Assembly (NCBI GenBank): GCA_016214695.1
Contig: JACRNY010000006.1
Span: 186,001 to 250,000 of the forward strand
DNA: 64,000 nt
Reading direction: 5' to 3'
Origin: Nitrosomonadales bacterium
Lineage (GTDB): Bacteria; Pseudomonadota; Gammaproteobacteria; Burkholderiales; Gallionellaceae
Position 1 is the first letter of the stretch, and each line of letters opens with the position of its first letter. Both the position numbers and the translations under genes were made by a program. The notes under the pieces were generated by a model, which was not told where the DNA came from, ran no database searches, and saw nothing but the letters and a program-made list of their open reading frames with translations. Shown here piece by piece: positions 29,616 through 44,628 of this stretch.

Positions 29616-29693
29616 TTTTTTTGCCCGGCAGTCGAGCGGGCCTGCGCGAAAAGCCGGGCGGGCCTCTCATCCCAGGTTAAAGCGCCGAGAACC

Positions 29694-30512: not shown

Positions 30513-30722
30513 TCAGCCCTGGCGCACCGCTGACTTTAAGGATGGTGCATCGCGCGCGACCTGTGACATACCCTTGGCGCGAGCAATATCACCAAGTGCT
30601 TTTGCAATAAACACAGCATCCCCATCAGCTTCTTCAAGGCACGCCTCAAGATAAATAACCATTTCCTCCTGGGTTCGGAGATGATCGGCTACGTCATAGT
30701 GAGTGGTAACGATTTTAGCCAT
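30513..30722 (-). pseudogene. Truncated HigA-type (addiction module) antitoxin
   Basis: The sequence from ATG 30720-30722 (MAKIVTTHYDVADHLRTQEE) matches the N-terminal half of the probable addiction module antidote family: YLEACLEEADGDAVFIAKAL and GDIARAKGMSQVARDA. The helix-turn-helix should continue GLSRESLYKAL, but here reads PSLKSAVRQG and stops, so the DNA-binding half is lost. No RelE/HigB-type toxin gene is next to it. It is best read as a remnant. Confidence 0.6.
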
Positions 30723-30844
30723 GGTAACTCTACTCCGATAGATTACATGCGAGGCGCTAAACTGGCTTGATGCAATGCCTGTCAGATCAATCTGAACTGC
30801 CACATATAAGGCCCATTGCTGCGGCCAACGATTCTTCCCTGCAC

Positions 30845-31426: not shown

Positions 31427-31489
31427 ACACGAAACATACTGGTAATGGTGTAAAACAAGGAATGCCTTGTCCCGAACTCAATCGACACT

Positions 31490-31945
31490 TCAATTTTTTA
31501 TGTTGTACTTGTCTCGCAGTTCCATGATGTTTTCGTACTGAAGCATACGTCGGTTGCCGCTATCGTCGAAGCTGGATTTGGCCGACTGGGCGACTGCCTC
31601 AGTACCGCCATGCCCCCACCATATGATTTGATTGTAGTCATCGTAGATGAATGCGGTTTGGTGCAGGTATGGGTCTCTAGCGCCCATCGAGATGCAGTTG
31701 GGGCCAGTTGTAATTACCCATAAATTCTCCCCCGTGATTTCTGTACGCATTGGGCCATTGATCTTTACCTGGCTTGCTTCGCTACAACCATTTTGATTGG
31801 CAACTTCAAGGATGAAAGCACGAACATCTGTTGGTACTTCATTGCTGAAGTGCAAAGCACCGGCATTGGCAGCCGTTGCCAGTCCTAGTGCTGCGAACAT
31901 TGCAACGCCACCAAGATACAAGACGAAGCGAATACTACGTTTCAT
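31490..31945 (-). CDS. Hypothetical secreted protein (151 aa)
   Basis: Signal peptide MKRSIRFVLYLGGVAMFAAL with cleavage after ANA near residue 28; the mature part has two Cys and many aromatic residues (IIWWGHGG). The start is ATG 31943-31945; the GTG 6 bases upstream is part of the GGGGG-rich binding site. No family recognised. Central gene of three exported proteins. Confidence 0.6.
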   Translation of the reverse strand: MKRSIRFVLYLGGVAMFAALGLATAANAGALHFSNEVPTDVRAFILEVANQNGCSEASQVKINGPMRTEITGENLWVITTGPNCISMGARDPYLHQTAFIYDDYNQIIWWGHGGTEAVAQSAKSSFDDSGNRRMLQYENIMELRDKYNIKN

Positions 31946-31993
31946 TGACACCCCCTATAATTTTCAAAAACAACGGGCACAAAACTAGAACTA

Positions 31994-32692
31994 CTACTTT
32001 TTCGCCGCCAACGTCTCGGTTGCTGAAGCCGCAGCCGGCGCAATATCGCTTACCACATAGAGCTTTATCCATTGATCGACCAGCATCTTTAACACCAGAT
32101 CTTCGGTCGCTTCATTGCCATTCTCCAGCTTGTACTTAACGGTCACGCCATTTGTGAACGTGCCGTCGTCAACCGTGCTTTTCCTGCTGTTAGGTTTCAA
32201 CAGCACCATCGCATTCAGGGTTGTCTTGCTGTCAGTCGGGAACAGTGCGCCGGAGGCAAAGGCGAGAACACCGGGAATACCTGCAACAACGCCTGCGGCG
32301 GCGGCACCGCCGACATTCACGGCATTGGGAACGCGCGAATGTGCTGCCTTGGCATCCGCATTGCTCATGTCCATAGAGCCTTGGGCGTCAAACAACAGTG
32401 CCAGGTCAGAGCCTTCCATCTTTTCGTTTACCTTGAATCCAAGCTCCGTGAACCGCTGCCGAATCAGCGTACTTGCATTAGACAGTTCCGAGCCAAAGAA
32501 ATACGGGGCCATCTTGATGTAGATGCCGTTTTGCAGATCCTTGGCGTTGAACTTGCGACCATCAGAACTCCCTGCAGCCGAAACGCCTGTCAGCGCGATG
32601 TTCTTTCCCTCATAGGTAACACCTTCTTCTGCCAGTACGGCAAACGACAGAAATGCTCCAATAGCCAGGACAATTCTTACTGCACGATTCAT
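31994..32692 (-). CDS. Hypothetical exported protein with glycine-zipper-like segment (232 aa)
   Basis: Signal peptide about 1-21 (MNRAVRIVLAIGAFLSFAVL). The middle holds a Gly/Ala-rich hydrophobic stretch (NVGGAAAAGVVAGIPGVLAF) like those in TraT-type and other outer-membrane proteins; IRQRFTELGFKV before it and a beta-rich end follow. TraT-like surface exclusion is one idea, but similarity is too weak to claim. ATG 32690-32692. First gene of the exported trio. Confidence 0.6.
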   Translation of the reverse strand: MNRAVRIVLAIGAFLSFAVLAEEGVTYEGKNIALTGVSAAGSSDGRKFNAKDLQNGIYIKMAPYFFGSELSNASTLIRQRFTELGFKVNEKMEGSDLALLFDAQGSMDMSNADAKAAHSRVPNAVNVGGAAAAGVVAGIPGVLAFASGALFPTDSKTTLNAMVLLKPNSRKSTVDDGTFTNGVTVKYKLENGNEATEDLVLKMLVDQWIKLYVVSDIAPAAASATETLAAKK

Positions 32693-32846
32693 ATTTAGGG
32701 CTCCTTTACGAGTCAAAAACGGCGAGATTTCAGCCACCACCACGCCCATTAAATAACCACTCTTGATGTGGCAATGCCACGCATTATGGCGTTCTATAAA
32801 TTTTGAGGCAAGTCCACCATTCCTGTGGCACAAACAGGGGGACAAT

Positions 32847-33197
32847 GTGACGCCAAAAGAAAAACGACTTGCTGTAAAGATGGGGCGAGCAATCGCAGTA
32901 CGCCGCCAGCAAAGAAACTTCACGCAGGCAGACCTTGCCGAAGCTATCGGAGTGGAACAAGAGACGATCTCTCGATTTGAACGGGGGGCAACTCTCCCGC
33001 CCCTCGGCCGATTAGCTGATATCGCAGACGCGCTATCTTGCCCGCTTGATGAGTTACTTCGTGGCGGTTCACCGCGCCTTGAAGATACGGCGCAAGGAAT
33101 TGCACGGGTCCTGGAGAAACTGACTGAGTCCGACCGACGATTGGTTGGCGATATCATTGACCAGCTTTGTGCGCGACTGCTAAAGAATAAAGCATAG
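32847..33197 (+). CDS. XRE-family transcriptional regulator (116 aa)
   Basis: A small helix-turn-helix protein. The HTH spans about residues 10-66: KMGRAIAVRRQQRNFTQADL, IGVEQETISRFERG, LGRLADIADALSC. The GTG start (32847-32849) has AGGGGG just upstream; earlier in-frame codons would reach into the promoter region. It is divergent from the exported trio, whose operon it may control. Confidence 0.85.
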   Translation: MTPKEKRLAVKMGRAIAVRRQQRNFTQADLAEAIGVEQETISRFERGATLPPLGRLADIADALSCPLDELLRGGSPRLEDTAQGIARVLEKLTESDRRLVGDIIDQLCARLLKNKA

Positions 33198-33656
33198 GTC
33201 ATTGGTTGGTACGCACACCAATGGAGCCATGTCTCCGCAAGGGTATTGGAACACGGCTCCAAAAATGGAATGCCTGCTCAACTCAAATCGAAGCAAGTGC
33301 TCATGAGCATCCGGAATATGTAAATGAGGAGCCCATACGTCACTTGACTTTAAATCCGAAGCAACTAGAATTCTTTGGGTCCGCGCCGCGTGGACGATAA
33401 AGGAACGCGGAATACCGAACTGCAGCACACCTGAACAGCCCGCCTCGGGCACTCTTCAATATTGAATCACTGAGCATTGTTCTGCCTGTCATTCCAAGAC
33501 AGGCACGACCATGTTCGGTCCCGTCTTTTCCGGCGTTCTGCTGGAAATCGCGCCGCACGAATGCGGCATTCAAACTGGACGCAGTCTCTTTCGCGTCATC
33601 CACAGAATCCAATCCAGAACAGCGGATAGCGATCTCTAGCCGAACATGGGGAAATT
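33198..33656. other. 459-base stretch without a supported gene
   Basis: I see no open frame with a ribosome binding site or a protein-like composition. It contains a hairpin GCCTGTC/GACAGGC (33484-33490 and 33498-33504). The last bases (GGGG at about 33646) serve as the binding site of the next gene. Confidence 0.5.
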
Positions 33657-33995
33657 ATGAATCTTCAAAATTTAAGCAAACGAGCGCGAGAAGTATGCAA
33701 GTTGTTATCTGATGGGCATTGCGTGCGGCATGGAATATTTGGCTTCGCACCAGGCAGTACCGTGCCGACGTATGGCTTTATATACTTCGCAGGAACTGTT
33801 CCAAGCTTGCTTGTTCCTTCCCGCACTATGAAGGCAATCCAAGCCGCTGGCGTGCCTCTTGATACTTTTAAGCACATCGATGAAGGCTGGAAAACCATCA
33901 TACCGACGAATCAACGCGAGTCTGTTTCTCTGGCATTGCGGGTGAACTTCGACAAAGTTGAATCCATTAGTCAAAGCGAAGCACTTGAACACTAA
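33657..33995 (+). CDS. Hypothetical protein (112 aa)
   Basis: No family recognised. MNLQNLSKRAREVCKLLSDG starts with an amphipathic helix; no signal or membrane segment. Its stop is followed after 18 bases by a terminator, which supports a real transcription unit. Confidence 0.5.
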   Translation: MNLQNLSKRAREVCKLLSDGHCVRHGIFGFAPGSTVPTYGFIYFAGTVPSLLVPSRTMKAIQAAGVPLDTFKHIDEGWKTIIPTNQRESVSLALRVNFDKVESISQSEALEH

Positions 33996-34013
33996 GTCAT
34001 CGCTGCTAAGACG

Positions 34014-34045
34014 AAGCCGCCATCCCTATGGGATTGGCGGCTTTT
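34014..34045 (+). terminator. Intrinsic terminator
   Basis: AAGCCGCCATCCC / GGGATTGGCGGCTT with a TAT loop, one bulged base, then TTTT, directly after the 112-residue gene. Confidence 0.8.
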
Positions 34046-34058
34046 CAATTTCGTAATG

Positions 34059-34439
34059 CTATGTAGCAGTCTGCACGACCATACGTAAGATCTCTCTGGC
34101 ATGCTGCCGTTGGTACTCTGGTCTCACTGGAAAGGTGAAGCAACGCCCGCGAGACAGAACTTGAAGCTCCCATGCGCAAAATTCATTTCTTCTCACACTC
34201 ACGTGGGAATCAAGCCCACGAATGACGGCAGAGTCATCGACGTCAACGGACTTGAGTGGATTTTCGTGAAAGTAGCCTTCATCAAGCCTCTGATTTTCAC
34301 TGACTGGTCGCAAGGAAAGTCTGAGCACCGCCTTTCCTCCGACAACTTCTGCTTCGAAATTCTCTGCGCCAACCGTGTTCCCAACCAGATCATGTTGGAG
34401 ATAGACACTAATGCGTCCTTTCCTAAGACTTCTAATCAT
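34059..34439 (-). CDS. Hypothetical protein (126 aa)
   Basis: No family recognised. The frame from ATG 34437-34439 has AAAGGAG upstream; the protein reads as a compact beta-rich domain (FEAEVVGGKAVLRLSLRPV). A shorter-coding frame on the opposite strand (34101-34466) overlaps it but has a less protein-like composition. The gene lies just downstream of the Mrr-like nuclease gene on the same strand and could be co-transcribed. Confidence 0.5.
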   Translation of the reverse strand: MIRSLRKGRISVYLQHDLVGNTVGAENFEAEVVGGKAVLRLSLRPVSENQRLDEGYFHENPLKSVDVDDSAVIRGLDSHVSVRRNEFCAWELQVLSRGRCFTFPVRPEYQRQHAREILRMVVQTAT

Positions 34440-34512
34440 CGTGCAGTCTCCTTTTACGATGGTTAACGTTTGAAATTACCGGCATGAACAATTTATGCTC
34501 AGAACTATGGTT

Positions 34513-35328
34513 TCATGGGCTGGCCGCAATACGTTCAGCGGCAATCATCCAGGGCCGCTTATTTTGATGATTTGTTAACCGCAACAAGTCTATGAAGCTA
34601 TTGAGGTCCACCAATTGAATTTTCTCTACTGCACCTACAAGCGCTGCTCGCTTTGCAGTAGATTGCGCACCTCGTGTAAATCGGCCTGCCGTTGTTACGA
34701 AGATTCCATTCCTCTGCTGCTCAACAACCATCGAGCCAATGAGTTCTCTAATCGGTTTAACACCTTCGGCAGCATTTAAGTTATGGCGACGTTTGACTTG
34801 TACAACCCATTGTTGGTCGCTCGTGACTAGTAGAAGATCAATTCCGCCATCGCCCGACCTTCCGAGATGGGTGACATCGCAGTCGAGATGATCCTTAAAT
34901 ACTGAACCCACAAGCTGCTCAAGTTTGGTGGGGTGTAAGTCGGCAAGGATGGTTGGCTTATCTTTCAGAACATGACGTAGAGAAGTGATTGGAACGTCGA
35001 GCCCCTGCGGGTCGAATTTCCTAAGGATGGAGAAACGATGCGTCGAACTAGAAAATATCTCGCCTTCGCCCATATAAGTGCCATGAAGGTCGTGTTCCCA
35101 CCACCAACCACAGTGCGGGCAATCGAATAATTGATGAACGCTATCGAAGGTGCCGCCGAGATCCTGCACGCTATTGATCGGCATGTCCATATTGCCCCGA
35201 CAAAACCTACATTGGCGCTTCAGGTTTCGGAAGAACCTCGTCTGAATTTGTTGAGCCGCAGGAGAAAAGAAGTTCTCGTGAATCTCCTCTGCGCTTTCTT
35301 CTACGAATTCTGTGTAGTCGAGGATCAT
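34513..35328 (-). CDS. Mrr-like restriction endonuclease with zinc ribbon
   Basis: A 271-residue nuclease. The C-terminal Mrr_cat-type PD-(D/E)XK domain starts at HPTKLEQLVGSVF (about 132) and has SGDGGIDLLL (Asp160, Asp164) and QVKR (Gln177, Lys179) as catalytic core, with GIFVTTAGRFT afterwards. The N-terminal part holds CRFC (40-43) and CPHC (70-73), a probable zinc ribbon. Mrr-like enzymes cut modified or foreign DNA. ATG 35326-35328 chosen; TTG nine bases upstream is possible. It diverges from the helicase-nuclease gene. Confidence 0.82.
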   Translation of the reverse strand: MILDYTEFVEESAEEIHENFFSPAAQQIQTRFFRNLKRQCRFCRGNMDMPINSVQDLGGTFDSVHQLFDCPHCGWWWEHDLHGTYMGEGEIFSSSTHRFSILRKFDPQGLDVPITSLRHVLKDKPTILADLHPTKLEQLVGSVFKDHLDCDVTHLGRSGDGGIDLLLVTSDQQWVVQVKRRHNLNAAEGVKPIRELIGSMVVEQQRNGIFVTTAGRFTRGAQSTAKRAALVGAVEKIQLVDLNSFIDLLRLTNHQNKRPWMIAAERIAASP

Positions 35329-35481
35329 GATAGCCAACAGTTGTTATACGGGCGCGCGCATAAGATTAAGAGGAGGTCCTTGGTGCCCACAATGTCTGCA
35401 ATTTCTGCTCGCGAAGCTTACAGTCTGGTTTAATATTGGAAGCATATCAGTAAACTTGCGATGCATCTTAAGGAGAATAGA

Positions 35482-37956
35482 ATGGCGTTAATCGATTTTT
35501 CGAAAATTAGCTTTTCCAGCGCTTCCGCAACCGACTTTTCTCCTAGTGCAGTATTCACGCGAGTTCGCAAACCCGAGTCAAAGTACCTGCGCCCAACTGA
35601 TGAGCAAGGGGTGATATTGAGCTCCTGGTATGAAAGACGAAATGAACAAGACTTAACGATTAAGTTGAATACGGGAGCTGGCAAGACACTGATAGGATTG
35701 CTTGCACTTCAATCTTCACTGGAAGAATCAATTTCCCCGGCAGTATATTTACTGCCCGACAAGGTGCTCCAGTCGCAAGTCATGTCGGAAGCTGCAGAGA
35801 TAGGAATCACAGTTACTGACGATCCAAACGACCTTAAATTTTTATCAGGGAAGTCTATTCTCGTTGCTGTTGCGCACAAATTATTCAACGGAAGGTCTGT
35901 CTTCGGGGTTGGTGTAGGTAATAAGCGTATTGATATCGGCTCGATCGTTATTGATGATGCTCACGCCTGCCTGCAAATTGCTAAACAACAATTCTCAATG
36001 GCTATTCCATCGACTGATGAGTCATACCATCAGTTGCAAACTCTTTTTTTGGGGGACCTTGAAAACATTTCCAAGCCATCCGCGCTCGCAATTGCAGATG
36101 GAGATCCATTTAAGTGGCTTGAGGTTCCGTTTTACAAGTGGAAAGAAAAAACATCTGAAGTCATATCCATTCTTGCCAGATCGAAATCTTCCGATGTTGA
36201 ATGGAAATACCCGCTTATTTCCGAATACCTTGACCTTTGCCAGTGCGTATTTTCCGGAAGTTGTGTTGAGATTGGTTTGCGACACTTGCCCGTAGAAATC
36301 TTGCCGGCGTTTCGTAATGCGAAACGCCGCATATACATGACGGCGACCCTTGCCGATGACGGACAGCTTGTAAGCCTCATTGGTGCGGATGCCGCGAGCG
36401 TTGCCAAGCCTATTTTGCCCGAAGGTGTGGGGAGTATTGGCGAACGGCTCATTATTGCCCCGATGGAAATTAATCCGAACATTAAGGAATCAGATATCGT
36501 CAACTGGGCTGTTGAGTATGCAAGTCGATTTAACGTTGTCGTTCTTTGTCCAAGTAGAGCACGCGCTGAATTGGTATGGTCGAACGTGGCGAGAATCTGT
36601 GTAGGCGACAGCGTGCAGCCTGTCGTAGAGGAACTGCGAAATAAACATGTTGGCCTTGTTGTTCTTGTGAATCGTTACGATGGAATTGACTTACCCGATA
36701 CCGCTTGTCGAGTACTCATCATTGATGAGCCACCTCAAGTTGTTGGCCTTATTGATCGAATTGAGATGGCGCAGATTGAAGGCACGCATCAAGCGGAAGT
36801 CCGTGAAATTCAAAAGGTCGAGCAAGGCATGGGGAGAGCCATTCGAAGGGTGGATGATTGGTGTCTTGTGATGCTGGTTGGCGGCAGGCTGTCTCGACTT
36901 ACTGGAATTCCCAAACTCCAGTCCTATTTTTCTCAAGCAACCCAGGCGCAGTTGGAGCTATCTCATCAAGTGACAAAACAAATTCTCGATGAACCATTAG
37001 ATAAGATAAAGGAAGCAGTAGAAATTATTCTCACGCGTGACAAAGGATGGATTTCTGCGAGTAGGGCTTGTATCGCAAGTCAGCGTCCAAAACAAAATCA
37101 GGCAATCGAACCCAGTGTAGGGAATTTGCGAACGGCTTTTGATTTGGCCTGCGTTAAGAAATTTCATGAGGCTGTCAGGGAGGTGGATGCAGCTATTGAG
37201 CATGCTAAAGAGGACAGAATGAAAGGGCTTCTCATGCAGCGTAAGGCTGAATATACATGGCACTTTGACAAGCTCAGCGCGCAGAAGCTTCTTAGCTCAG
37301 GTTTGAAATTTAATAGGGCAATAACCCCTCCAGAATCGGGAATCGACTATGGTCGAGTTAATGCGGCCAGAACAGAACAGGCTGTGGCAATTCGAGAGAA
37401 AATATGCAATTGGCCTGAGCCGCGTGAATTCTTGTTGGAACTAAGATCTACTTTGGACGATCTTGCGTGGGACGAAGAACGTACAAAGCGTTTTGAGAGC
37501 GCCATTGACTGGCTAGGACAGCATCTTGGCTTTAGCACGCAAAGACCTGATCACTTTTACCGTAATGGCCCTGATAACCTATGGGCCATGGGGGATGGAA
37601 AATTTCTCGTAATTGAATGTAAATCTGGCGCAACTGGTGAAAACATCAAGCGCTCTGATATTGAGCAACTTCTACATTCTGAAGCATGGTTTAAGGAAAT
37701 GTATGGGGAGCAAACGAAGTATTCTCCAATCATTATTCACCCCTCTCACAAATTAGCTACAGATGCAGTTGCCAGTTCGGAATCCAGGGTTATTGATAAT
37801 GAAAGGCTTGAGAAATTGCGCACCGCTGTAAATGATTTTTTTATCACGGTATGCGGCAAAGGCTCTGTGTTGGAAGCGGCCAAGATATCAGAAAATCTTA
37901 ATAAGTACTCGTTCACACCCGGTCAGTTTACAGGTTGTTATACGACCAATCTTTAA
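35482..37956 (+). CDS. SF2 DEAD/DEAH-type helicase with C-terminal nuclease-like domain
   Basis: A predicted 824-residue protein. Motif I LNTGAGKT (about 62-69), motif II IDDAH (157-161, a DDAH variant), motif III MTATL (about 285) and motif VI QGMGRAIRR mark an SF2 helicase. The C-terminal region has LVIECKSGATGE with E712-C-K714, the E-x-K of a PD-(D/E)XK nuclease, after an N-proximal DxLWA segment. The start ATG 35482-35484 has AAGGAG six bases before; an upstream in-frame ATG at 35461 is less likely. Helicase-nuclease fusions of this kind are typical of phage-defence loci. No partner is in an operon with it. Confidence 0.8.
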   Translation: MALIDFSKISFSSASATDFSPSAVFTRVRKPESKYLRPTDEQGVILSSWYERRNEQDLTIKLNTGAGKTLIGLLALQSSLEESISPAVYLLPDKVLQSQVMSEAAEIGITVTDDPNDLKFLSGKSILVAVAHKLFNGRSVFGVGVGNKRIDIGSIVIDDAHACLQIAKQQFSMAIPSTDESYHQLQTLFLGDLENISKPSALAIADGDPFKWLEVPFYKWKEKTSEVISILARSKSSDVEWKYPLISEYLDLCQCVFSGSCVEIGLRHLPVEILPAFRNAKRRIYMTATLADDGQLVSLIGADAASVAKPILPEGVGSIGERLIIAPMEINPNIKESDIVNWAVEYASRFNVVVLCPSRARAELVWSNVARICVGDSVQPVVEELRNKHVGLVVLVNRYDGIDLPDTACRVLIIDEPPQVVGLIDRIEMAQIEGTHQAEVREIQKVEQGMGRAIRRVDDWCLVMLVGGRLSRLTGIPKLQSYFSQATQAQLELSHQVTKQILDEPLDKIKEAVEIILTRDKGWISASRACIASQRPKQNQAIEPSVGNLRTAFDLACVKKFHEAVREVDAAIEHAKEDRMKGLLMQRKAEYTWHFDKLSAQKLLSSGLKFNRAITPPESGIDYGRVNAARTEQAVAIREKICNWPEPREFLLELRSTLDDLAWDEERTKRFESAIDWLGQHLGFSTQRPDHFYRNGPDNLWAMGDGKFLVIECKSGATGENIKRSDIEQLLHSEAWFKEMYGEQTKYSPIIIHPSHKLATDAVASSESRVIDNERLEKLRTAVNDFFITVCGKGSVLEAAKISENLNKYSFTPGQFTGCYTTNL

Positions 37957-38026
37957 CCAGTATCCCCATTTCCAAAAGCGAGGCTGTGACCGACAATATG
38001 GCTGATCATTTTGGCCTTTTGCTACC

Positions 38027-38095
38027 CTAGGCCTACACACAGGCCTAGCTGCCGCACCGCCCAGTTCGGCAGCATAGCGGCACCGTCGCTATGCT
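38027..38095. repeat. Three adjoining perfect hairpins
   Basis: Stem 1 CTAGGCCT/AGGCCTAG (38027-38034, 38041-38048), stem 2 GCTGCCG/CGGCAGC (38048-38054, 38067-38073) and stem 3 AGCATAGCG/CGCTATGCT (38071-38079, 38087-38095). The arms share border bases. They lie between the convergent ends of the helicase gene and a regulator gene and might end transcription, but no T-run follows. Confidence 0.6.
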
Positions 38096-38118
38096 GGCCA
38101 CATCGGCATTCTCTCAAG

Positions 38119-38448
38119 TCACGCTTTCTCTGGAGGCGGTAGGCTTTTATGAGCCTTACCCCGATTGGCTCTTAAGCGTATCTGCTTGCGCTTTGTTAAG
38201 CCCCCGGCACCCGGGAGTACATCCGGGAATGAAGCTTCCAGTACATCCAGCTTTCGAAGACCCCGCAGCAGCTTGATCAATGATGAAAAGCGCACATCCT
38301 TCCCGGCTTCCAGTTCGAGTATCGTTTTTCGATTCAACCCTGAGCGCTCGGCGAGATATTCGATCGGCAGGTTCTGAGTGAGCCGGATTTCCCGCACCCG
38401 GTCTCCAATCAGTTGCATGACTTCATCGTTTGTTAGGTGGTCCAGCAT
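38119..38448 (-). CDS. XRE-family regulator (109 aa)
   Basis: A helix-turn-helix protein of a family common near mobile and restriction loci: DEVMQLIGDRVREIRLTQNL, YLAERSGLNRKTILELEAGK, then VRFSSLIKLLRGLRKLDVL. The C-terminal tail (LTKRKQIRLRANRGK) is basic. I chose ATG 38446-38448; the open frame extends 32 residues upstream without homology. Related proteins often precede hipA-type or R-M genes; none is next to it here. Confidence 0.8.
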   Translation of the reverse strand: MLDHLTNDEVMQLIGDRVREIRLTQNLPIEYLAERSGLNRKTILELEAGKDVRFSSLIKLLRGLRKLDVLEASFPDVLPGAGGLTKRKQIRLRANRGKAHKSLPPPEKA

Positions 38449-38529
38449 GACGGACGATAACTGCAAAATTTGTTGAGTATGTCCATTAGGACGGACGTTG
38501 TGGGAAATATCAGCAAAGGTTTTTGGAAT

Positions 38530-38554
38530 AAAAAAGGCCGACATGGAGTCGGCC
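38530..38554 (-). terminator. Intrinsic terminator of the HU gene
   Basis: On the minus strand GGCCGAC, loop TCCAT, GTCGGCC, then six T. It is 27 bases past the HU stop. Confidence 0.85.
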
Positions 38555-38580
38555 CTTTATGGAAGCTCACGCTTCGCTGA

Positions 38581-38865
38581 TTATTTCTTGGTGCCATTCA
38601 CAGCGGCCTTGAGTCCTGCGCCGGCTTTGAAAGCGGGCTGCTTGGAAGCCTTGATCTTGATGGACTCACCGGTAGCCGGGTTGCGGCCGTTGCGTGCTGC
38701 GCGCTTGCGAACCTCAAACGTGCCGAAGCCCACCAGTTGAACGTTGTCGCCCTTCTTCAAGGAGGCGGTAACGATATCGAGCAACGCTGCGATGCTGCGG
38801 TCGGCATCAGCCTTGCTGCTGCCAGTCTTGTCTGCCAGTGCTGTGATCAATTCTTGGCGGTTCAT
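38581..38865 (-). CDS. HU-family DNA-binding protein
   Basis: A 94-residue nucleoid protein. MNRQELITALADKTGSSKAD and GFGTFEVRKRAARNGRNPATGES (cut here into two parts) are HU hallmarks, with the RNP arm ending in KIKASKQPAFKAG. AAAGGAG precedes the ATG at 38863-38865. HU here sits inside the accessory block, flanked by regulators; it may be island-borne rather than the housekeeping copy, which cannot be judged from the window. Confidence 0.92.
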   Translation of the reverse strand: MNRQELITALADKTGSSKADADRSIAALLDIVTASLKKGDNVQLVGFGTFEVRKRAARNGRNPATGESIKIKASKQPAFKAGAGLKAAVNGTKK

Positions 38866-38908
38866 GTGTGTCAGCTCCTTTTGTTGTAGTTTGAGTGCCG
38901 AGGATGGA

Positions 38909-38936
38909 TTGTTATGGATGCGAGGCTGGTTGGCAA
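38909..38936 (-). promoter_or_regulatory. Candidate promoter of the HU gene
   Basis: On the minus strand TTGCCA (38931-38936), a 16-base spacer and TAACAA (38909-38914), about 44 bases before the ATG. Confidence 0.5.
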
Positions 38937-38940
38937 GTGG

Positions 38941-39339
38941 TCAGCCAAAGTCAGATAGGAACTTAGCTAAGGATGCCTTCTTTCCGGCAGACATCCGTCT
39001 TATGCGCATGATAATAACATCATCTGACTTATCAATTATCTTGCGCTTACCGCGGCTGCTTGCAACCTGATTTGCCAAAGGCTGACCCTCGCCAGTAATG
39101 ACCCAGTGGAGATTTAAGGCTCTGCCGTGAGCGTCGCGAAGCTTGGAAATATGTTCTGAAATCCGCACAAAATCTGGGAGTGTAGCTCCCTTTCGTACCG
39201 CCTGTATGGTGCTTGGGTTTGCGTAACCCAAGAGCTTTGATAGCTCCGCTGGGCTTATACCAAGATACTCTTGCGCCGCTCGCACAAAACGCTCGGCAAT
39301 ATTTGCAACAGCTTGTTCGGATCTTTGTTGACGTGACAT
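38941..39339 (-). CDS. HTH regulator divergent from the methylase
   Basis: A 132-residue protein. The N-terminal half has a helix-turn-helix pattern (FVRAAQEYLGISPAELSKLL, NPSTIQAVRKGATLP, FVRISEHISKL), and the C-terminal half is basic, ending in MSAGKKASLAKFLSDFG. It starts at ATG 39337-39339, 48 bases from the methylase start on the other strand. Controller proteins of restriction-modification loci have this layout, so it likely represses the methylase through the operator at 39344-39356. Confidence 0.75.
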   Translation of the reverse strand: MSRQQRSEQAVANIAERFVRAAQEYLGISPAELSKLLGYANPSTIQAVRKGATLPDFVRISEHISKLRDAHGRALNLHWVITGEGQPLANQVASSRGKRKIIDKSDDVIIMRIRRMSAGKKASLAKFLSDFG

Positions 39340-39356
39340 AATAATGATATTATCAT
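39328..39356 (+). promoter_or_regulatory. Methylase promoter with overlapping palindromic operator
   Basis: TTGACG (39328-39333), a 17-base spacer and TATCAT (39351-39356). The -10 box is the right arm of the palindrome ATGATA-T-TATCAT (39344-39356). The start of the divergent regulator gene is inside the promoter. Confidence 0.5.
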
Positions 39357-39387
39357 GTTGTTAGCTTAAATTGTAAAGGGCGGCCGA

Positions 39388-40587
39388 ATGAACAAAAAAC
39401 TTGGTCAATTCATGACACCTTCTGGCATTGCCGGCTTAGTTGCACGTGAGCTTGGCTACTGTGATACGGTCATCGATTTTGCAGTAGGTGAAGGTGCCCT
39501 TCTGAATGCAGTCCAGCACATGCAAGGAAATGGAACTGGGGTAATAGGTTTCGATGTTGATCAAAAAATGATCAATAGAGCGCAAATGGTTTTGCGCAAT
39601 GCACAACTGATTTATGGAAATGGGCTGACCTCGCACATCAAAGGCGAGCCACGAGGAAAAATAGGAATTGTCGGCAACCCTCCGTTTGTGAGTGCAGCCC
39701 CAGTTGAATCGTCTTGGGTTACTAAAGCCTTTCCAGGATTGACAGGGAAACTGGGTACGCACCGAGCAGAAGTGCAGTTTCTGGCTCGTGCCCTTGTAAC
39801 CGCTCGGCCTGTTGGCGGGCGAGTGGTTTTCGTAATGCCTATCGGCTTTGCCGATGGAGATATATACAGTCGCATTCGCGCCCTTCTTACAAGCCAGTAC
39901 AGGCTACTTAAATGCATCGAGGTTCCGGCTGGGATATTCGCCGACACTGAGGCGCGCACCGTCGTGTTGGTAATTGATACAGCAGGTGAAGGCGGGATAG
40001 AAACAGAAGTGTGTGAGGTTCAAGCCTACAGCGCGCAACCATTGCGAGTGGTCTCCAAGGTGATCAAGCCTGGAGAAAGACTTGATGCTCGATATCATAA
40101 GGCCATGCAATCCAGCACTTCCAATGGGCCGCTTCTCAGAGACTTGGGGGTGACTATTGATCGTGGCATTTACTCCCGAAAGGAAGCGGAGGATATGCAC
40201 ATCACTGCAATTCACACGAGTGATCTAAATCGAGCTACCAATCACAAATTGGTGGGATCGCCAGGAAAGAATGAAACCCTCGGACACGCAGTAACAGCGA
40301 AAAAGGGAGATATATTATTACCGCGGACTGGTTCAAGGGTTCGTTGGGAGCCTGTGATTGTTCAATCAGGAGAGATGCCTATTACAGACCATGTATTTCG
40401 AATTCGAGCTCCGAAAAAGGTCCGGGAAATAGTATGCCAGTCGTTTTACCACCCACTATTTAGAGCGTGGCTTGAAGGGGCGAGCAAGGGAGTTTGCGCA
40501 ACAGTGCTTACCAAACGTGAGTTGCTGCAAATGCCTGCATTTGCATTTTCTTATAGTGCCGAAGAGCTGCTATCAACCACATCATAG
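39388..40587 (+). CDS. N6-adenine DNA methyltransferase
   Basis: A 399-residue methyltransferase. GQFMTPSGIAGLVARELGY opens as in TaqI/type I-like enzymes; motif I is DFAVGEGALL (30-39) and motif IV NPPF (97-100), so the target is adenine. The C-terminal half (about 250-390) resembles a specificity domain, with LLPRTGSRVRW. Start ATG 39388-39390 behind AAAGGGCGG. No nuclease is fused. Its last 37 bases overlap, tail to tail, with the 311-residue gene on the other strand. Confidence 0.85.
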   Translation: MNKKLGQFMTPSGIAGLVARELGYCDTVIDFAVGEGALLNAVQHMQGNGTGVIGFDVDQKMINRAQMVLRNAQLIYGNGLTSHIKGEPRGKIGIVGNPPFVSAAPVESSWVTKAFPGLTGKLGTHRAEVQFLARALVTARPVGGRVVFVMPIGFADGDIYSRIRALLTSQYRLLKCIEVPAGIFADTEARTVVLVIDTAGEGGIETEVCEVQAYSAQPLRVVSKVIKPGERLDARYHKAMQSSTSNGPLLRDLGVTIDRGIYSRKEAEDMHITAIHTSDLNRATNHKLVGSPGKNETLGHAVTAKKGDILLPRTGSRVRWEPVIVQSGEMPITDHVFRIRAPKKVREIVCQSFYHPLFRAWLEGASKGVCATVLTKRELLQMPAFAFSYSAEELLSTTS

Positions 40588-41486
40588 AAATGCCATCGAC
40601 GGACTTTGTCCGTTCTGCCTTGTGTACGATCTGGATGATCATAGAGAAAGACTGCTTGCTCCATTGCAGTAAATTCAAGCAGAAATAATATGGCTCCGAT
40701 CGCATGCGGTTTTGTTCCAAGAGGAGCCACAAGAATCGGTTTGTCCTCCTTATCCTGATGCCGAAGTGCGCAAAGCAGGTTATATGCGCCGGCGACACTT
40801 GATGCCGCAGTAAATTGAACCGAATCCTGCCCGTCAAAGTATTGGATATTGTTAGCGATAGTGTCTATTTCCCACCCGGGTTCGAATGCCGGCACCCCGA
40901 TAACCATATGCTTCTTCCAGCGCTGAAGAATTTCCTCTTGCTCTAGGGCTTGTCCAAGACGTGCGCCTTCATACCCAAGAAAGAAAACGGCTCGACCTGG
41001 ACTTGTCTCATTTAAATCCGTTCGAAACATTGGGATTGATCGATAAAGGCGATTATCGCTTAGATCAAAATCGCGATGTTCACACAGCCTTCCTTCAATA
41101 CGTCGGCGATACCCACGCGGTTCTACATAAACTAATCGTAGCTGAGAAACGGCTTCTTTGACTGCTGCGGCAATTACATAAAGTATTTCAGTAACACTAA
41201 GAGTCGTAGCTTCAATGAGTACGCTTTTCTGCCTTGAAAATTGCGCACGCAAGCCTCCAAATGTAGTTACCTTTCCGTTGATTAATGTTTCATTGGTTGG
41301 CAAATCAAATCGAACGGTGACTGTGCGTGAGGCATTCGCTGAAACGAAGTTACTTGCAGCAACGGACCGATCATCGATATCAACCTTTTCAGCTACAACT
41401 GCGACATCCCATTTGGACTTAGGAGAATCTTCCGGCGGGGTCTCGGATTCGTGCGTAGTTGTGGAAATAATGAATCGCTGGTGCAT
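40551..41486 (-). CDS. Unknown Rossmann-like protein of the three-gene operon (311 aa)
   Basis: I cannot name the family. An N-terminal beta/alpha domain (SVLIEATTLSVTEILYVIAA, then LVYVEPRGY) is followed by a second one with VFFLGYEGARLG (about 167-178), MVIGVPAFEPGWE, FTAASSVAGAYNLLCAL and VAPLGTKPHAIGAILFLLE (PLGTKP at 255-260). The GTKP turn between strand and helix recalls CARF-type Rossmann domains, but this is only a pattern likeness. The ATG directly follows the AAA gene's TGA (TGAATG), so the two are coupled. It is the third gene of the operon. Confidence 0.7.
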   Translation of the reverse strand: MHQRFIISTTTHESETPPEDSPKSKWDVAVVAEKVDIDDRSVAASNFVSANASRTVTVRFDLPTNETLINGKVTTFGGLRAQFSRQKSVLIEATTLSVTEILYVIAAAVKEAVSQLRLVYVEPRGYRRRIEGRLCEHRDFDLSDNRLYRSIPMFRTDLNETSPGRAVFFLGYEGARLGQALEQEEILQRWKKHMVIGVPAFEPGWEIDTIANNIQYFDGQDSVQFTAASSVAGAYNLLCALRHQDKEDKPILVAPLGTKPHAIGAILFLLEFTAMEQAVFLYDHPDRTQGRTDKVRRWHFYDVVDSSSSAL

Positions 41487-43454
41487 TCACTTCTCCAGGT
41501 CGAATGACAACTGATCGCCACTATCGGAGGACCATGACTTTTCATATTGACGAAGAAGCTGGGTAAACTCTTCAACACGGCCAGTTAGCATGGCTTCAGC
41601 TTCGCCCGATTGCAATTCAAGTTTTCGGCCTTTGTTGTAGGACAGACCGAAAAATGGTGCGTAAATGGGATTTAAAATATATTCACTTGATTCATACCGA
41701 TTAGCTTTGACCTTGGTTTCAGGGGTCTCAATAAGCACCGACCATTTAATTGCCTCCCTTAGCACTTCACGAGCGCGAGAGCTGAGCTCCTCATCTACAA
41801 TTGAAAAGTGTGTACGCTCAGATTCACTTTGCGAATACCGCCCTTGTGACAATCGAAAGAGTTTTCCAAGGAAATTAACAAGTGCAAGTAGGCGGCCCCC
41901 TTGATTACCACTACTGGCAACTTCCTCACGAAATTTTCTACTAGCTCGAAAGGCGGCATCGGCCTGCGTATCAATCGACACGAAAAATCCCTGCAACCCA
42001 CTTGTTGGCAGGATGCCACCAATTGAGAGGTGGCACAGTTCGAGGAAATATCTGACGTTGGTGCCAGACAATTTCGTAAATGCATCAAAACCCGCATATA
42101 TGGGACATGGGCGCTGGCGCAAAGGAAGGTAAATTAGCAGCAGCGTTCCGACGAGTAAGTGATGAACCCACTCTCCTTTGTTGAAACTGGATGGTTGAGA
42201 TTGTCTCAGCTTATTAAACTCTGCCAGAATGTCACTGGCAGATTTTGAGCGCTGATGAAGCAAAGCGGCACATACAACAGAAGCTTCAGGGTAATCTCTA
42301 TCAAGAAATTCTTTGGCCGTTAAAGCCGAACCTTGCAACTTCAGGCCCTCCTCAGTAATTCTTTGCCAGCGTCTAAGAAGAGGGGTGTTTTCCTGCAGTA
42401 CAAGTTGAGCCACCTCTCCATATCTTAACCCAGGAAGGATGCGCCCAATTTCACTAAGAACATGTTGTTGATATTGAGTGTCGCTTGCGCGTGAAGAAAG
42501 ATGCTCAATATTCCTAAGTCTATCAAGGGATACTGGAGTATGTGATTCAGGAAGTTTGGATTCACTGATCAAGCGGAAGAAAAACAATTCAGCCGCGAAC
42601 AATTGAAAAGTCGGTTGAAGCAAATCATCAAGGTTTAGAAGGCGAAAATCTGCAGTTTCTTGAATTGATTCTGTCCCGATTGTGCTGCGAGTTCGCATCC
42701 CATTGGGTTTCATTGCCACGTGAAAAATGAGTGGCGGCTCGCCGCTCTTAATCAGGGTATTCAGAAATCGTTGCTGATAATCCAGCAGGTTTTCATATTC
42801 ATCAATGTAGACAGCAAACACTGTGCTCGACATGTAATCGAGCTTAGATCTGAGTTCTGCAATCAGCGCACTAAGAAAATCACGCAGGGGAAGTAAGGTT
42901 GGTGGTTGGTCAAAATCATAGTTCTTAAACCAACGCGATAGTGTCTGTCTCTGGTGGCGAATCCACTTGTCAAAGCCCTCTAAATCAGCCGGGATAGGAA
43001 TACTAGTGAATCCCTGGACGGCATCTGTGAAATTCAGCTTGTCGATATGTCCAAAATTCGAACACCTTTCGGAATTGCAGTTTAGTGTTCTGACAGAACT
43101 AATGATCTGCTCAGAAAGGGCAAGGCAAAGAGCATGTTCAAAGATGTCTTGCCATCTACGTTCATCAAGGCTGCTGCCAGTGAAACCGCTGAAATACTGC
43201 GTGTCCGCCTTTAAATAAAGCCCAACAGTACGAAGGGCTTCGTTAGGAATACATACTCGCTCAGGCGAAAACTGGCTTTGAAAGGACAAATATCGAAGCA
43301 GGGCTGTTTTACCGCATCCCCGACCGCCAACGAGGACGTGTGATTTACGAGCTTCATCAAGACCTAGCTGCGGAAAATATAACGGGAGGACGTAGCTTGA
43401 CCAGACGTCGAGTCCAAATTCTTCAGTGCGGTTTCGGATAAAGGCGTTCAGCAT
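41487..43454 (-). CDS. ORC/CDC6-type AAA ATPase (655 aa)
   Basis: A large P-loop ATPase: Walker A GGRGCGKT (43-50) in VLVGGRGCGKTALLRYL and Walker B AVYIDEYENL (about 215-222). The spacing and the long helical C-terminus resemble bacterial ORC-CDC6-type AAA ATPases known from conflict systems. The C-terminal region (about 390-650) has a winged-helix-like flavour (SALTAKEFLDRDYPEASVV). It starts at ATG 43452-43454, five bases past the PRTase stop. Presumably the motor or sensor of the operon. Confidence 0.72.
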   Translation of the reverse strand: MLNAFIRNRTEEFGLDVWSSYVLPLYFPQLGLDEARKSHVLVGGRGCGKTALLRYLSFQSQFSPERVCIPNEALRTVGLYLKADTQYFSGFTGSSLDERRWQDIFEHALCLALSEQIISSVRTLNCNSERCSNFGHIDKLNFTDAVQGFTSIPIPADLEGFDKWIRHQRQTLSRWFKNYDFDQPPTLLPLRDFLSALIAELRSKLDYMSSTVFAVYIDEYENLLDYQQRFLNTLIKSGEPPLIFHVAMKPNGMRTRSTIGTESIQETADFRLLNLDDLLQPTFQLFAAELFFFRLISESKLPESHTPVSLDRLRNIEHLSSRASDTQYQQHVLSEIGRILPGLRYGEVAQLVLQENTPLLRRWQRITEEGLKLQGSALTAKEFLDRDYPEASVVCAALLHQRSKSASDILAEFNKLRQSQPSSFNKGEWVHHLLVGTLLLIYLPLRQRPCPIYAGFDAFTKLSGTNVRYFLELCHLSIGGILPTSGLQGFFVSIDTQADAAFRASRKFREEVASSGNQGGRLLALVNFLGKLFRLSQGRYSQSESERTHFSIVDEELSSRAREVLREAIKWSVLIETPETKVKANRYESSEYILNPIYAPFFGLSYNKGRKLELQSGEAEAMLTGRVEEFTQLLRQYEKSWSSDSGDQLSFDLEK

Positions 43455-43459
43455 AGAAT

Positions 43460-44359
43460 TTACCGATCCAGTAGCGGAGTAAAGGATGGGGTTTCATACC
43501 AAAACACAGGTAGGGAATTATTCGGTGTGGCGTGCGAAAAGGCGTACGCCAATCCCAACTCTCCATACCCTTCAGCAAGTCTCCCCTTTTGCGGAAGGCC
43601 GGCCTTAGATACTACCGTCCTGTATTGCTCGTGAATCATGTCTGCAAAGCCCTTTACCTGGTATCGACGCAAGCAGCTGTCTGACAATGGTGCATTGAGA
43701 TCACTGAGGAGCTCCGCCCACTTAACTTTAATATAGGGGAATAGCTTGGCTATGCGATCCAAACCCTTCGGATGAATTGTGGTGACGAGATAGGTTACCT
43801 GCAAATGTGGGTGCAGGCTAACGAATTCATTGAGACGAATTCCATTTACGAAATCCTCGAATTGCTCTCCTGTTCCACAAAAATCATCTAGAAAATATAA
43901 ATCAGTAACTGTGCCAGCATGCGCAAGCATATGGGGCCAAATCAACCAATCTGAATGGATTCTGAACCTCCTCTGTGCCAAGCGCAGGATATAAGGCCCG
44001 GATTTGGTTGGTGGTGCAAGATGTCCGATGACGGGGGCTATACGGACGCCGAAATTGGGGCTGGCTGATTTGCCGAGTCGCAACTGATCTAACAGTGGAA
44101 TTGTTGGTGTCTTGCTAGCAGAGGAAGATAGATCAACAAATAATGTATCCAACAAGGAAAAGAACTGGTCTCTTGATCGGAATGCTAGGTTGTCGAGCAA
44201 GTAGGCGCCGAGCAATTCAGCATCATAATTTCGAAGACAGCCCATCCAACTATCCAGTTGAACATCTTTCATGCCCTCCCACACGCGCGCATGAATTAAT
44301 TTGCGGGCGCGGTCAACGACCTGATCTATGTAGTCAGCGGTGTCGTCGGAATTCAGCAT
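43460..44359 (-). CDS. Phosphoribosyltransferase-like protein (299 aa)
   Basis: LYFLDDFCGTGEQFEDF (154-170) fits the PRPP-loop motif (two acidic residues, then T-G) of type I phosphoribosyltransferases, and the end FSHATPNNSLPVFWYE matches the conserved tail (PNN-LP-FW) of PRTase-CE-type proteins from prokaryotic conflict systems. It is not a salvage enzyme by layout. It is the first gene of the leftward operon; the ATG is 44357-44359. What it modifies is unknown. Confidence 0.72.
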   Translation of the reverse strand: MLNSDDTADYIDQVVDRARKLIHARVWEGMKDVQLDSWMGCLRNYDAELLGAYLLDNLAFRSRDQFFSLLDTLFVDLSSSASKTPTIPLLDQLRLGKSASPNFGVRIAPVIGHLAPPTKSGPYILRLAQRRFRIHSDWLIWPHMLAHAGTVTDLYFLDDFCGTGEQFEDFVNGIRLNEFVSLHPHLQVTYLVTTIHPKGLDRIAKLFPYIKVKWAELLSDLNAPLSDSCLRRYQVKGFADMIHEQYRTVVSKAGLPQKGRLAEGYGELGLAYAFSHATPNNSLPVFWYETPSFTPLLDR

Positions 44360-44542
44360 CTTGTAAACATTTGCATAGAGTGCTCGATTGTCGCATCTTG
44401 TTTGCGTGTGATTGTTTCAATGAAGGCCTATATACGGTCTAGTACGAATAGCATATTGCACACTGTCTATAATTGCGATAAGTGGCGTCAAGATGGGTGG
44501 GTGCGTGCGAAGGCTTTTGGCTCCCCCTTTTTCTTCATAAAT

Positions 44543-44570
44543 TGAAAAATGCCCTCCAATGGAGGGCATT
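44543..44570 (-). terminator. Intrinsic terminator of panD
   Basis: On the minus strand AATGCCCTCC/GGAGGGCATT with a three-base loop, then five T; it lies 59 bases past the panD stop and marks the right border of the accessory block. The 173 bases left of it, up to the PRTase start, show no gene. Confidence 0.85.
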
Positions 44571-44628
44571 AAATTATCTATAACAGATTGTATTTATTTA
44601 GTTTGGGCAACTGAGACAAAAGGGCGAT

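Follow-up and report, generated by a model that had tools for sequence, protein, structure and literature searches.

In the window (the whole 64,000-nucleotide stretch of contig JACRNY010000006.1 of a Nitrosomonadales bacterium that was analysed here), genes for a DNA methylase, a PRTase-CE phosphoribosyltransferase, an ORC/CDC6-like ATPase, and a CARF6-family protein form, as judged from sequence comparison, one mobile unit (Table 1). This four-gene unit very likely serves defence. As the best reading overall, we propose a mobile, methylation-linked, CRISPR-independent antivirus system with the PRTase as a swappable effector and an inferred mechanism, a reading to which we give about even chances.

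Table 1 Features of the system and its surroundings (positions in the window).
Feature	Position	Strand	Description
Genomic island carrying the system	25372..44626		Between purB and panD; low GC
DinG-like helicase	35461..37956	+	PADLOC PDC-S28, E 1.5e-273; optional neighbour
Xre-like HTH protein	38941..39339	-	Divergent from the methylase; Pfam Xre-like-HTH, E 6.7e-4, below the curated cut-off
N6-adenine-type DNA methyltransferase	39388..40587	+	399 aa; Pfam N6_Mtase, E 2e-9; core partner
CARF6-family protein	40551..41486	-	311 aa; proposed nucleotide-sensing or regulatory subunit
ORC/CDC6-like AAA+ ATPase	41487..43454	-	655 aa; proposed switch/scaffold
PRTase-CE phosphoribosyltransferase	43460..44359	-	299 aa; proposed effector

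An earlier note on this DNA had claimed a tightly coupled three-gene operon at 40551-44359, and all three minus-strand ORFs were found there, with a 5-base gap between the PRTase and ATPase ORFs and the ATPase stop directly abutting the CARF6 start. Promoter and terminator scans near the operon gave counts about equal to those in shuffled sequence. The product of the first gene, previously called PRTase-like, matched Pfam PRTase-CE (PF24390, E 2.3e-36) and PADLOC PRTase_III-A (E 2.2e-16), a label that we take to mean retron type III-A. In an alignment of 79 of 98 matches (length filter; three named near-copies or duplicates removed), D158, D159, and G164 of the acidic-pair PRPP-type motif were conserved in 79/79 relatives; the catalytic motif is intact, and PRPP-dependent phosphoribosyl transfer is predicted. 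The alignment gave weak matches to PDB sequences, with uracil PRTases first (best E 0.016). The structure was predicted from 63 of the 79 rows (close or redundant rows were among those dropped) with a pLDDT of 93.7. Among the 50 PDB matches listed for this model, 43 are titled phosphoribosyltransferase, seven carry structural-genomics titles or are Fur1p, and none is titled as another fold, so the matches agree uniformly with the assignment, although all of them score poorly, with a best E of 5.9e-4 and TM by query between 0.18 and 0.31. The PRTase is probably the effector.

The second protein matched Pfam ORC-CDC6-like (PF24389, E 1.2e-106) over its whole length (residues 4-614), and its assignment as an ORC/CDC6-type ATPase holds by sequence. 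Walker A (G43, G46, G48, K49, and T50) and Walker B (D218 and E219) residues were invariant in 55/55 aligned relatives, a statement that refers to these rows, hand-chosen from 89. Comparison of the alignment with PDB sequences was uninformative (best E 0.1), and its use against viral contigs returned nine loci. The earlier suggestion that PRTase-CE and ORC/CDC6-like proteins make up a predicted conflict system fits. The consecutive accessions PF24389-PF24391 (ORC-CDC6-like, PRTase-CE, and HD-CE) suggest one curated description of such a system, the first two genes are members by profile, and HD-CE stands in the place of the first gene in two related loci.

The third protein, which the earlier note could not name, does carry the noted PLGTKP motif (residues 255-260) and is a CARF6 protein by PADLOC profile (PDLC01920, E 3.6e-67), as were 69/69 relatives scanned. 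It had no match in the Pfam scan, its alignment (85 of 95 matches after a length filter and removal of three named near-copies or duplicates) matched no PDB sequence to E 10, and the single protein matched nothing in the viral contigs searched. A model predicted from 69 of the 85 rows (close or redundant rows being among those dropped) reached a pLDDT of 91.6. Its fold search returned weak matches including Csm6, Card1, Csa3, Cap5, and SAVED proteins (TM 0.26-0.39); two chloride transporters, which are chance matches, ranked first by E-value, and ordinary Rossmann enzymes scored alike. The CARF6 clade reportedly comes from the CARF classification of Makarova in 2020. CARF proteins are mainly known for reading the cyclic oligoadenylate made by type III CRISPR systems, and some degrade their own ligand. 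That a small nucleotide mediates the gating of the effector by CARF6 is a tentative idea, with somewhat less than even chances.

We surveyed the gene neighbourhood of the trio in 97 loci, of which 94 were used for gene order and methylase counts after dropping L034 (contig shared with L019), L063, and L088 (no complete ATPase ORF); near-copies, among them L003/L086, L026/L073, L036/L037, L041/L042, and L069/L070, were kept. The order was maintained: among the matches listed, CARF6 lay directly downstream of the ATPase in 94/94 loci (as a fragment at a contig end in L044) and PRTase directly upstream in 92/94. The two loci without an upstream PRTase call were L043, at a contig start, and L095, where an overlong ATPase ORF overlaps the adjacent PRTase; the PRTase was split into two ORFs in L027 and L045. 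Finding the three genes apart in most genomes would have refuted the claim of the earlier note. This was not the case for ATPase and CARF6, whereas PRTase-CE alone does turn up elsewhere, with a reverse transcriptase as its neighbour or within loci that resemble type I R-M. Because these contexts are quite different, kinship alone does not prove the role of the PRTase in the trio. For the 83 loci whose four proteins all fell into the set length range (L034, L042, L044, L063, and L088 were left out by name, while other near-copies stayed), distance correlations were 0.87 (PRTase-ATPase), 0.90 (ATPase-CARF6), and 0.83 (PRTase-CARF6). By this measure, the trio co-evolves tightly. Going by host names as labelled, the loci span at least seven phyla.

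The methylase gene is convergent with the trio and overlaps the CARF6 gene by 37 bp. Its NPP motif was conserved in 32/32 aligned relatives (rows hand-chosen from 83), and its C-terminal region (250-372) faintly resembles type I specificity subunits (PADLOC Specificity_I, E 0.05). The earlier note had listed it as a neighbour. It does adjoin the trio, but it is a constant partner and not a mere neighbour: among the matches listed, an N6-type methylase lay no more than 6 kb from the ATPase in 90/94 loci, a rate that is biased upward because ATPases with a methylase nearby served as seeds for the survey. In the remaining four loci, a PF01555 methylase lies directly upstream of PRTase in three, as it does in L018, and the fourth is at a contig edge; a DNA methylase of one of the two families was thus present in 93/94 loci among the matches listed, mostly within tens of bases. 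Across related loci, N6-type, PF01555, and C5 methylases fill this place. Distance correlations between methylase and trio (83 loci) were 0.61-0.67, and the methylase is evidently swapped, for example between L047 and L050, whose ATPases share 69% identity and methylases 26%, low in both methylase domains. These comparisons indicate that the methylase is kept but exchanged in the PRTase branch. Since it is exchangeable while the trio stays, the methylase is probably also the site-reading subunit. Methylation serves self-protection somewhat more probably than not.

In a less biased sample, 14/398 Pseudomonadota genomes had an ORC-CDC6-like protein over the cut-off, and CARF6 accompanied the ATPase in 10/14 (eight by PADLOC, two by the profile built here). 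The enzyme slot of these 10 loci held PRTase (five), HD-CE (two), a metallophosphatase (two, near-identical), or a kinase fusion (one). In the kinase case, ATPase and CARF6 are fused to the kinase, and a 414-aa gene without assignment, and not the kinase, precedes the ATPase. A methylase was present in the fetched stretch of only five of the 10 CARF6 loci; SIS/HAD-like genes stood in its stead in three, and none was seen in the fetched stretch of the remaining two, which are near-identical. As judged from these gene contexts, ATPase and CARF6 are the constant core, and the enzyme slot changes between variants. PRTase systems formed one side of a branch in 6% of bootstrap trees, and the well-supported branches of the same tree alone are compatible with a single origin of PRTase systems. 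Because of this, and because long branches make placement unsure, the main evidence for the effector swap is the gene contexts, with the tree carrying less weight.

The earlier description of a foreign-looking block agrees with its low GC (0.45-0.51 in 2-kb windows; mostly 0.55-0.65 in the flanks) and its insertion between purB and panD. In the panD loci of 11 relatives, purB adjoins panD within about 200 bp in five, the purB terminator directly follows panD before other DNA in two more, and neither purB nor its terminator lies within the 1.5 kb examined in four. An imperfect 11-bp repeat, ATTCAGGC(C/T)GC, is present at both island edges (25361-25371 and 44627-44637). Mobile settings of the system include plasmids, a record labelled phage, Tn7-like elements with TnsB/TnsC, and the genomic island described here. 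The Xre-like HTH protein is possibly a control protein; members of its cluster lie no further than 6 kb from the trio in eight loci, the window included, and another cluster, made up of small proteins judged by eye to be HTH-like, was found in 10 loci within the same distance (L034, L037, L042, L070, L073, and L086 were left out of neighbour clustering). We rejected the helicase as a core gene, with a homologue in only 5/97 loci among the matches listed (two near-copies and one fragment included). An Mrr-type gene at 34513-35337 is some 4 kb further out than the methylase; no Mrr-like gene was among the neighbour clusters of at least three loci.

The host genome had no RAMP (type III) and no Cas1 match, which rejects a type III CRISPR accessory for this genome. 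RAMP was found in 2/50 system-bearing genomes searched and SMODS in 11/50, while 38/50 had neither; cyclases may be missed in these counts because the SMODS model was used alone, and it scored the CD-NTase of the host below its cut-off. This CD-NTase cyclase (PADLOC Cyclase, E 1e-143) lies on another contig, so a cyclic-nucleotide input is possible. We nevertheless regard the system as CRISPR-independent with high confidence.

The component families are already known from Pfam and PADLOC, and a PADLOC profile for a CARF6-kinase-ATPase fusion puts a link between CARF6 and ATPase on record. Here, CARF6 is a stand-alone protein whose partners are a methylase and a PRTase, and neither Cas1 nor RAMP has a match in the genome. 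Excerpts of PMC4012209 describe a family combining a CARF-like domain, an NtrC-type AAA+, and an HTH (RtcR relatives), often found with R-M systems, and suggest that CARF ligands could regulate DNA restriction. RtcR relatives are sigma-54-type regulators in one chain, whereas the ORC/CDC6-like ATPase, CARF6, and enzyme here are separate genes. The pairing of an ORC/CDC6-type ATPase with a DNA methylase recalls BREX, in which, according to excerpts of PMC12839542, the ORC/Cdc6-clade ATPase BrxC (about 1200-1300 residues) works with the methylase BrxX for self-marking. The ATPase here is smaller, CARF6 and an enzyme slot are present instead, and PglZ had no match anywhere in the host genome, which rules out membership in BREX. 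The PRTase is of a type homologous to those of type III-A retrons, which carry a PRTase (excerpts of PMC12548924), and of the protective DprA-PRTase pair (excerpts of PMC9122126, where the PRTase is also a probable effector in retrons); no reverse transcriptase was found among the seven locus proteins scanned with Pfam, and no DprA in the four-gene unit. The methylase with small HTH genes close by, and an HsdM gene adjoining one related branch, resemble type I/II R-M systems, but none of the four proteins showed a nuclease domain in Pfam and PADLOC scans. Unlike CBASS, the operon has no CD-NTase, as the only SMODS match in the host lies on another contig. The literature searched contained no description of the methylase-linked four-gene unit or of a function for it, and mentioned neither PRTase-CE nor CARF6 and PRTase together; the available text of PMC12669027 had nothing on it, while conflict-system surveys mentioning PRTase (PMC5512222 and PMC7824862) may bear on the system.

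The earlier note took the layout to suggest a sensing function, an ATP-driven step, and perhaps nucleotide chemistry, and as a proposal this is still the best reading. The methylase would mark its own sites in the host DNA and probably also be the subunit that reads them. The ATPase would assemble an ATP-dependent complex engaging unmarked incoming DNA, as proposed for BrxC/BrxX in BREX, and CARF6, as a nucleotide-sensing or allosteric subunit, would couple DNA contact to the enzyme. The activated PRTase would deplete or alter nucleotides or bases via PRPP chemistry and thereby halt phage replication, which the cell itself would probably pay for. A point against this reading is that the trio shows no visible recognition domain. 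A more specific proposal, which we hold to be possible but doubtful, is restriction-like immunity without a nuclease: the swappable methylase provides self marking and site reading, the ATPase, on meeting unmarked DNA, enters a state that CARF6 reads, and CARF6 releases the slot enzyme (PRTase, HD phosphohydrolase, or metallophosphatase) or the fused kinase. On this proposal, CARF sensing would have a second role, free of CRISPR, in modification-based immunity.

Among the alternatives, the trio could be a toxin in a guard or addiction module, silenced by the mark or protein of the methylase and released when methylation is lost or inhibited by a phage anti-methylase factor or plasmid loss. The mobile settings, the constancy of an exchangeable methylase in the PRTase branch, and the small HTH-like genes near the trio, as with control proteins of R-M systems, are consistent with such a module, but no link between methylation and trio expression was found. 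Moreover, no methylase was seen in the stretches read around variants that carry SIS/HAD-like genes or a metallophosphatase, so the core does not in general depend on a methyl mark as its antidote. We consider the module unlikely. These SIS/HAD-like siblings and the lower methylase-trio correlations would also suit a methylase that is an unrelated defence-island neighbour of a trio forming the system alone. That a methylase nearly always accompanies the trio among the matches listed, and that different families occupy its place, makes this reading less likely still.

Two further alternatives concern the ligand of CARF6. It could bind cyclic oligonucleotides made by type III CRISPR or CBASS elsewhere in the cell, with the PRTase as an accessory, as the known role of CARF proteins as sensors of such signals and the cyclase on another host contig would allow; the lack of RAMP and Cas1 matches in the host, and of both RAMP and SMODS in most system-bearing genomes searched (missed cyclases aside), makes this highly improbable. 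We give equally little credence to CARF6 as a ring-nuclease-like or product-sensing off-switch that binds or destroys a PRTase-made nucleotide and so limits the PRTase. CARF and PRTase do occur together throughout the PRTase branch, and ligand degradation is known for CARF proteins, but CARF6 is retained where HD-CE, metallophosphatase, or a kinase fusion replaces PRTase, and its general ligand is therefore not a product specific to the PRTase.

The methylation-linked antivirus reading connects a CARF clade with DNA methylation and with a phosphoribosyltransferase, and most of the genomes concerned have no type III CRISPR match. If it is true, the system would offer a testable case of modification-based self/non-self recognition ending in nucleotide chemistry and not DNA cutting, with natural effector swaps ready for comparison.

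The three tightly coupled ORFs of the earlier note were present as drawn, with a five-base spacing followed by a stop codon abutting a start codon. The DNA methylase that it had placed beside them was found as gene 4, a DNA N6-methylase by Pfam, and the 3' ends of this gene and the CARF6 gene overlap by 37 bp. Its C-terminal region faintly resembles type I specificity subunits (PADLOC, E 0.05).

Features of the four-gene unit, its genomic island and other loci
Feature	Sequence	Coordinates	Strand
Gene 1, PRTase-CE	window	43460-44359	minus
Gene 2, ORC/CDC6-like ATPase	window	41487-43454	minus
Gene 3, CARF6	window	40551-41486	minus
Gene 4, DNA N6-methylase	window	39388-40587	plus
Island edge, direct repeat	window	25361-25371	
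Island edge, direct repeat	window	44627-44637	
IS1595 transposase	window	25943-27022	
Mrr-type restriction endonuclease	window	34513-35337	
DinG-like helicase	window	35461-37956	
Type I R-M-like, PRTase-CE	L016	5852-8038	
Type I R-M-like, PRTase-CE	L017	7980-10331	
Second ORC-like ATPase with gene of about 283 aa	L049	12034-14618	
Second ORC-like ATPase with gene of about 283 aa	L081	5173-7945	
ORC-like ATPase and N6 methylase	L154	843-3874	
dUTPase_2	L005	3288-3926	
SIR2-like	L072	12029-12982	
Tn7-like TnsB and/or TnsC	L080	2715-6175	
CD-NTase-type cyclase	L168	940-1908	

Both enzyme assignments of the earlier note held on sequence, with gene 1 matching Pfam PRTase-CE (E 2.3e-36) and gene 2 Pfam ORC-CDC6-like (E 1.2e-106). 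Walker A and Walker B of gene 2 were invariant in 55/55 aligned relatives, and the acidic pair D158-D159 and G164 of gene 1 were kept in 79/79. The predicted structure of gene 1 (pLDDT 93.7) matched PDB entries with low scores (best E 5.9e-4; TM by query 0.18-0.31). Among the 50 matches listed, 43 carried phosphoribosyltransferase titles, the remaining 7 had structural-genomics titles or named Fur1p, and none was titled as another fold. The third protein, which could not be named earlier, is now identified as CARF6 by PADLOC (E 3.6e-67), whose profile matched 69/69 relatives scanned; no match was found in Pfam or NCBIfam. When its predicted structure (pLDDT 91.6) was compared with the PDB, two chloride transporters took the first places by chance, and Csm6, Card1, Csa3, and the SAVED protein Cap5 recurred near the top with weak scores (TM 0.26-0.39) that ordinary Rossmann enzymes equalled. 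The lysine of its PLGTKP motif (residues 255-260) was kept in 84/85 relatives, and the motif resembles GT[KR], a motif of CARF proteins elsewhere.

Relatives of gene 3 found by tblastn included 147 plasmid records and 2 phage-labelled records. Four of these plasmid or phage-labelled regions were retrieved, from Diaphorobacter, Cupriavidus, Klebsiella, and an Acinetobacter phage-labelled record in which host-type genes are also present; in each, a PRTase, an ATPase, and a DNA methylase lay beside the gene 3 relative. An ATPase-alignment scan of the genomes of 84,980 species gave 80 loci, the best 80 of 110 relatives, from at least 7 phyla as read from record titles. The neighbourhood survey proposed in the earlier note found the genes together: among the 94 loci with an ATPase ORF, drawn from these best 80 of 110 and earlier loci, CARF6 directly followed the ATPase in 94 (L044 giving a fragment at a contig end), a PRTase preceded it in 92, an N6-type methylase lay within 6 kb in 90, and all of these features coincided in 88. 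The methylase of these 88 loci was downstream opposed (34), downstream co-directional (27), upstream co-directional (26), or upstream opposed (1). The N6-type match in L015 and L018 was an HsdM-like protein of 710-742 aa, and the methylase of L102 was in two pieces. Four loci lacked an N6-type methylase: L044 is truncated where its contig stops, and L030, L031, and L032 instead have a PF01555-family methylase directly before the PRTase; L018 likewise has one there, and L015 a relative of one. As judged from gene neighbourhoods, the methylase belongs to the unit with the trio.

Pairwise-distance correlations across 83 loci were 0.87 (PRTase-ATPase), 0.90 (ATPase-CARF6), and 0.83 (PRTase-CARF6), and 0.61-0.67 between the methylase and each of these three; permutation gave maxima of 0.07-0.11. 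The ATPases of loci L047 and L050 were 69% identical and their methylases 26%, with low identity in both catalytic and specificity parts. The weaker methylase correlations and such close trios with unlike methylases indicate that the trio keeps some methylase, and no particular one.

Other genes recurred near the system, mostly recognised by clustering. Seven loci (L049, L081, L065, L076, L079, L084, and L107) had another ORC-like ATPase, of about 575 aa and only weakly matched by Pfam, together with a gene of about 283 aa that had no Pfam or PADLOC match; in L049 and L081 this pair directly adjoins the methylase. In L154, a 646-aa ORC-like ATPase lies beside an N6 methylase without the trio. 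A dUTPase_2 gene was near the system in seven loci (L005, also by Pfam; L052, L053, L059, L068, L087, and L088, by clustering), and a SIR2-like gene in five Pseudomonas loci (L072, also by Pfam; L074, L078, L101, and L110); in L072 and L101 the SIR2-like gene separates CARF6 from the methylase. Genes for Tn7-like TnsB and/or TnsC formed clusters of 7 and 5 loci (L080, also by profile; L019, L033, L062, L071, L075, L082, and L108). To judge by these Tn7-like neighbours, several lineages probably carry the system as Tn7-type cargo.

As a less seed-dependent sample, 398 Pseudomonadota genomes were scanned for PF24389, which exceeded the cut-off in at least 14, a lower bound with three candidates scored per genome. 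Stretches were fetched around the 13 matches outside the genome under study (GCA_016214695.1). CARF6 partnered the ATPase in 10 of the 14 genomes, this one included (8 by PADLOC; L143 and L146 by a home-made profile), and was not found in the other 4. The place of gene 1 in these 10 loci was occupied by PRTase-CE in five (our own by Pfam, four by a home-made profile), HD-CE in two, and a calcineurin-like metallophosphatase in two near-identical loci of one genus, one of them scanned; in the last, a kinase-like domain was fused with the ATPase and CARF6, preceded by an uncharacterised 414-aa gene. The fetched stretches held an N6-type methylase in 2 of the 10 loci and a C5 methylase in 3. Three PRTase loci without a methylase had a SIS/HAD-like gene, identified by eye; that of the relative L022 was HAD by Pfam, with SIS below the cut-off. 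Beside the metallophosphatase form, searches run without the C5 profile turned up no methylase. When 30 ATPases were placed in a tree, those of the HD, metallophosphatase, and kinase systems fell among the PRTase forms, and only 6% of bootstrap trees kept the PRTase forms as one group. Their placement is unsure, with long branches, and the well-supported branches alone allow one origin.

PRTase-CE was present in 10 of 199 relatives' genomes: with the rest of the trio and a methylase in four, with a SIS/HAD-like gene and an ATPase in two (L022, where CARF6 was also shown, and L023), in type I R-M-like loci with a NADAR-specificity fusion in two, beside a reverse transcriptase in one, and near a contig end in one. 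Sibling systems of SIS/HAD-like gene, PRTase-CE, ORC-like ATPase, and CARF6 were seen in L022, L023 (CARF6 presumed), L148, L149, and L151, with a NADAR gene in L148 and a PfkB gene in L151 (Pfam); they look like a ribose/nucleoside pathway. The type I R-M-like loci L016 and L017, whose NADAR domain is fused to the specificity domain, are by their domain content another link of PRTase/NADAR with DNA modification.

The block proved as foreign-looking as the earlier note had claimed (GC 0.45-0.51 versus mostly 0.55-0.65 in the surrounding region). It is an island filling the space between purB (end 25307) and panD, and an imperfect 11-bp direct repeat is readable at its edges, at the 3' end of panD. 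Among 11 panD loci of relatives, purB adjoined panD (within about 200 bp) in five, panD was followed directly by purB's terminator and then other DNA in two (L158 and L159), and neither purB nor its terminator lay within the 1.5 kb compared in four. Since L158 and L159 show only purB's terminator after panD, then other DNA, the panD 3' end may act as a hotspot for insertions. Inspection of the ORF lists by eye revealed no tyrosine integrase. The island also carries an IS1595 transposase and two defence-like genes, the Mrr-type endonuclease and the DinG-like helicase (PADLOC PDC-S28, E 1.5e-273).

The source genome (2.66 Mb, 9 contigs, completeness 99.97%) had no RAMP, Cas1, or PglZ. It has one CD-NTase-type cyclase on another contig (C2, locus L168; PADLOC Cyclase, E 1e-143), adjoining a gene that by eye resembles an ImmA/IrrE peptidase. 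The SMODS model scored this cyclase below its cut-off and can thus underscore cyclases. In counts covering 50 of the 78 listed system-bearing genomes, RAMP occurred in 2 and SMODS in 11 (9 over cut-off); since one genome has both, 38 had neither.

The component families are already on record in Pfam and PADLOC, so the unit does not represent an entirely new kind; a description of the four-gene unit was not found in the literature searched and may already be in print. According to excerpts of the cited papers, a DprA-PRTase pair gives protection from T7 and lambda, with PRTases also named as probable retron effectors (PMC9122126), type III-A retrons carry a PRTase (PMC12548924), BrxC of BREX is an ORC/Cdc6-clade ATPase with self DNA recognised and modified by BrxX (PMC12839542), a CARF-AAA+-HTH family was tied to R-M systems in 2014 (PMC4012209), and DS-8 defence requires a metallophosphatase domain (PMC13092281). 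These kin systems serve as analogies for the four-gene unit. The parts, their order, the intact catalytic motifs, the mobile settings, and the swapping of methylase and enzyme are established at the level of sequence. In the mechanism that we propose, the methylase would mark self DNA and probably also act as the site reader, the ATPase would be the switch, and CARF6 the coupling subunit; BrxC and BrxX, of another system, offer a parallel for pairing the ATPase with a methylase. The PRTase would be the effector, as the DprA-PRTase pair and the retron PRTases suggest from other systems.
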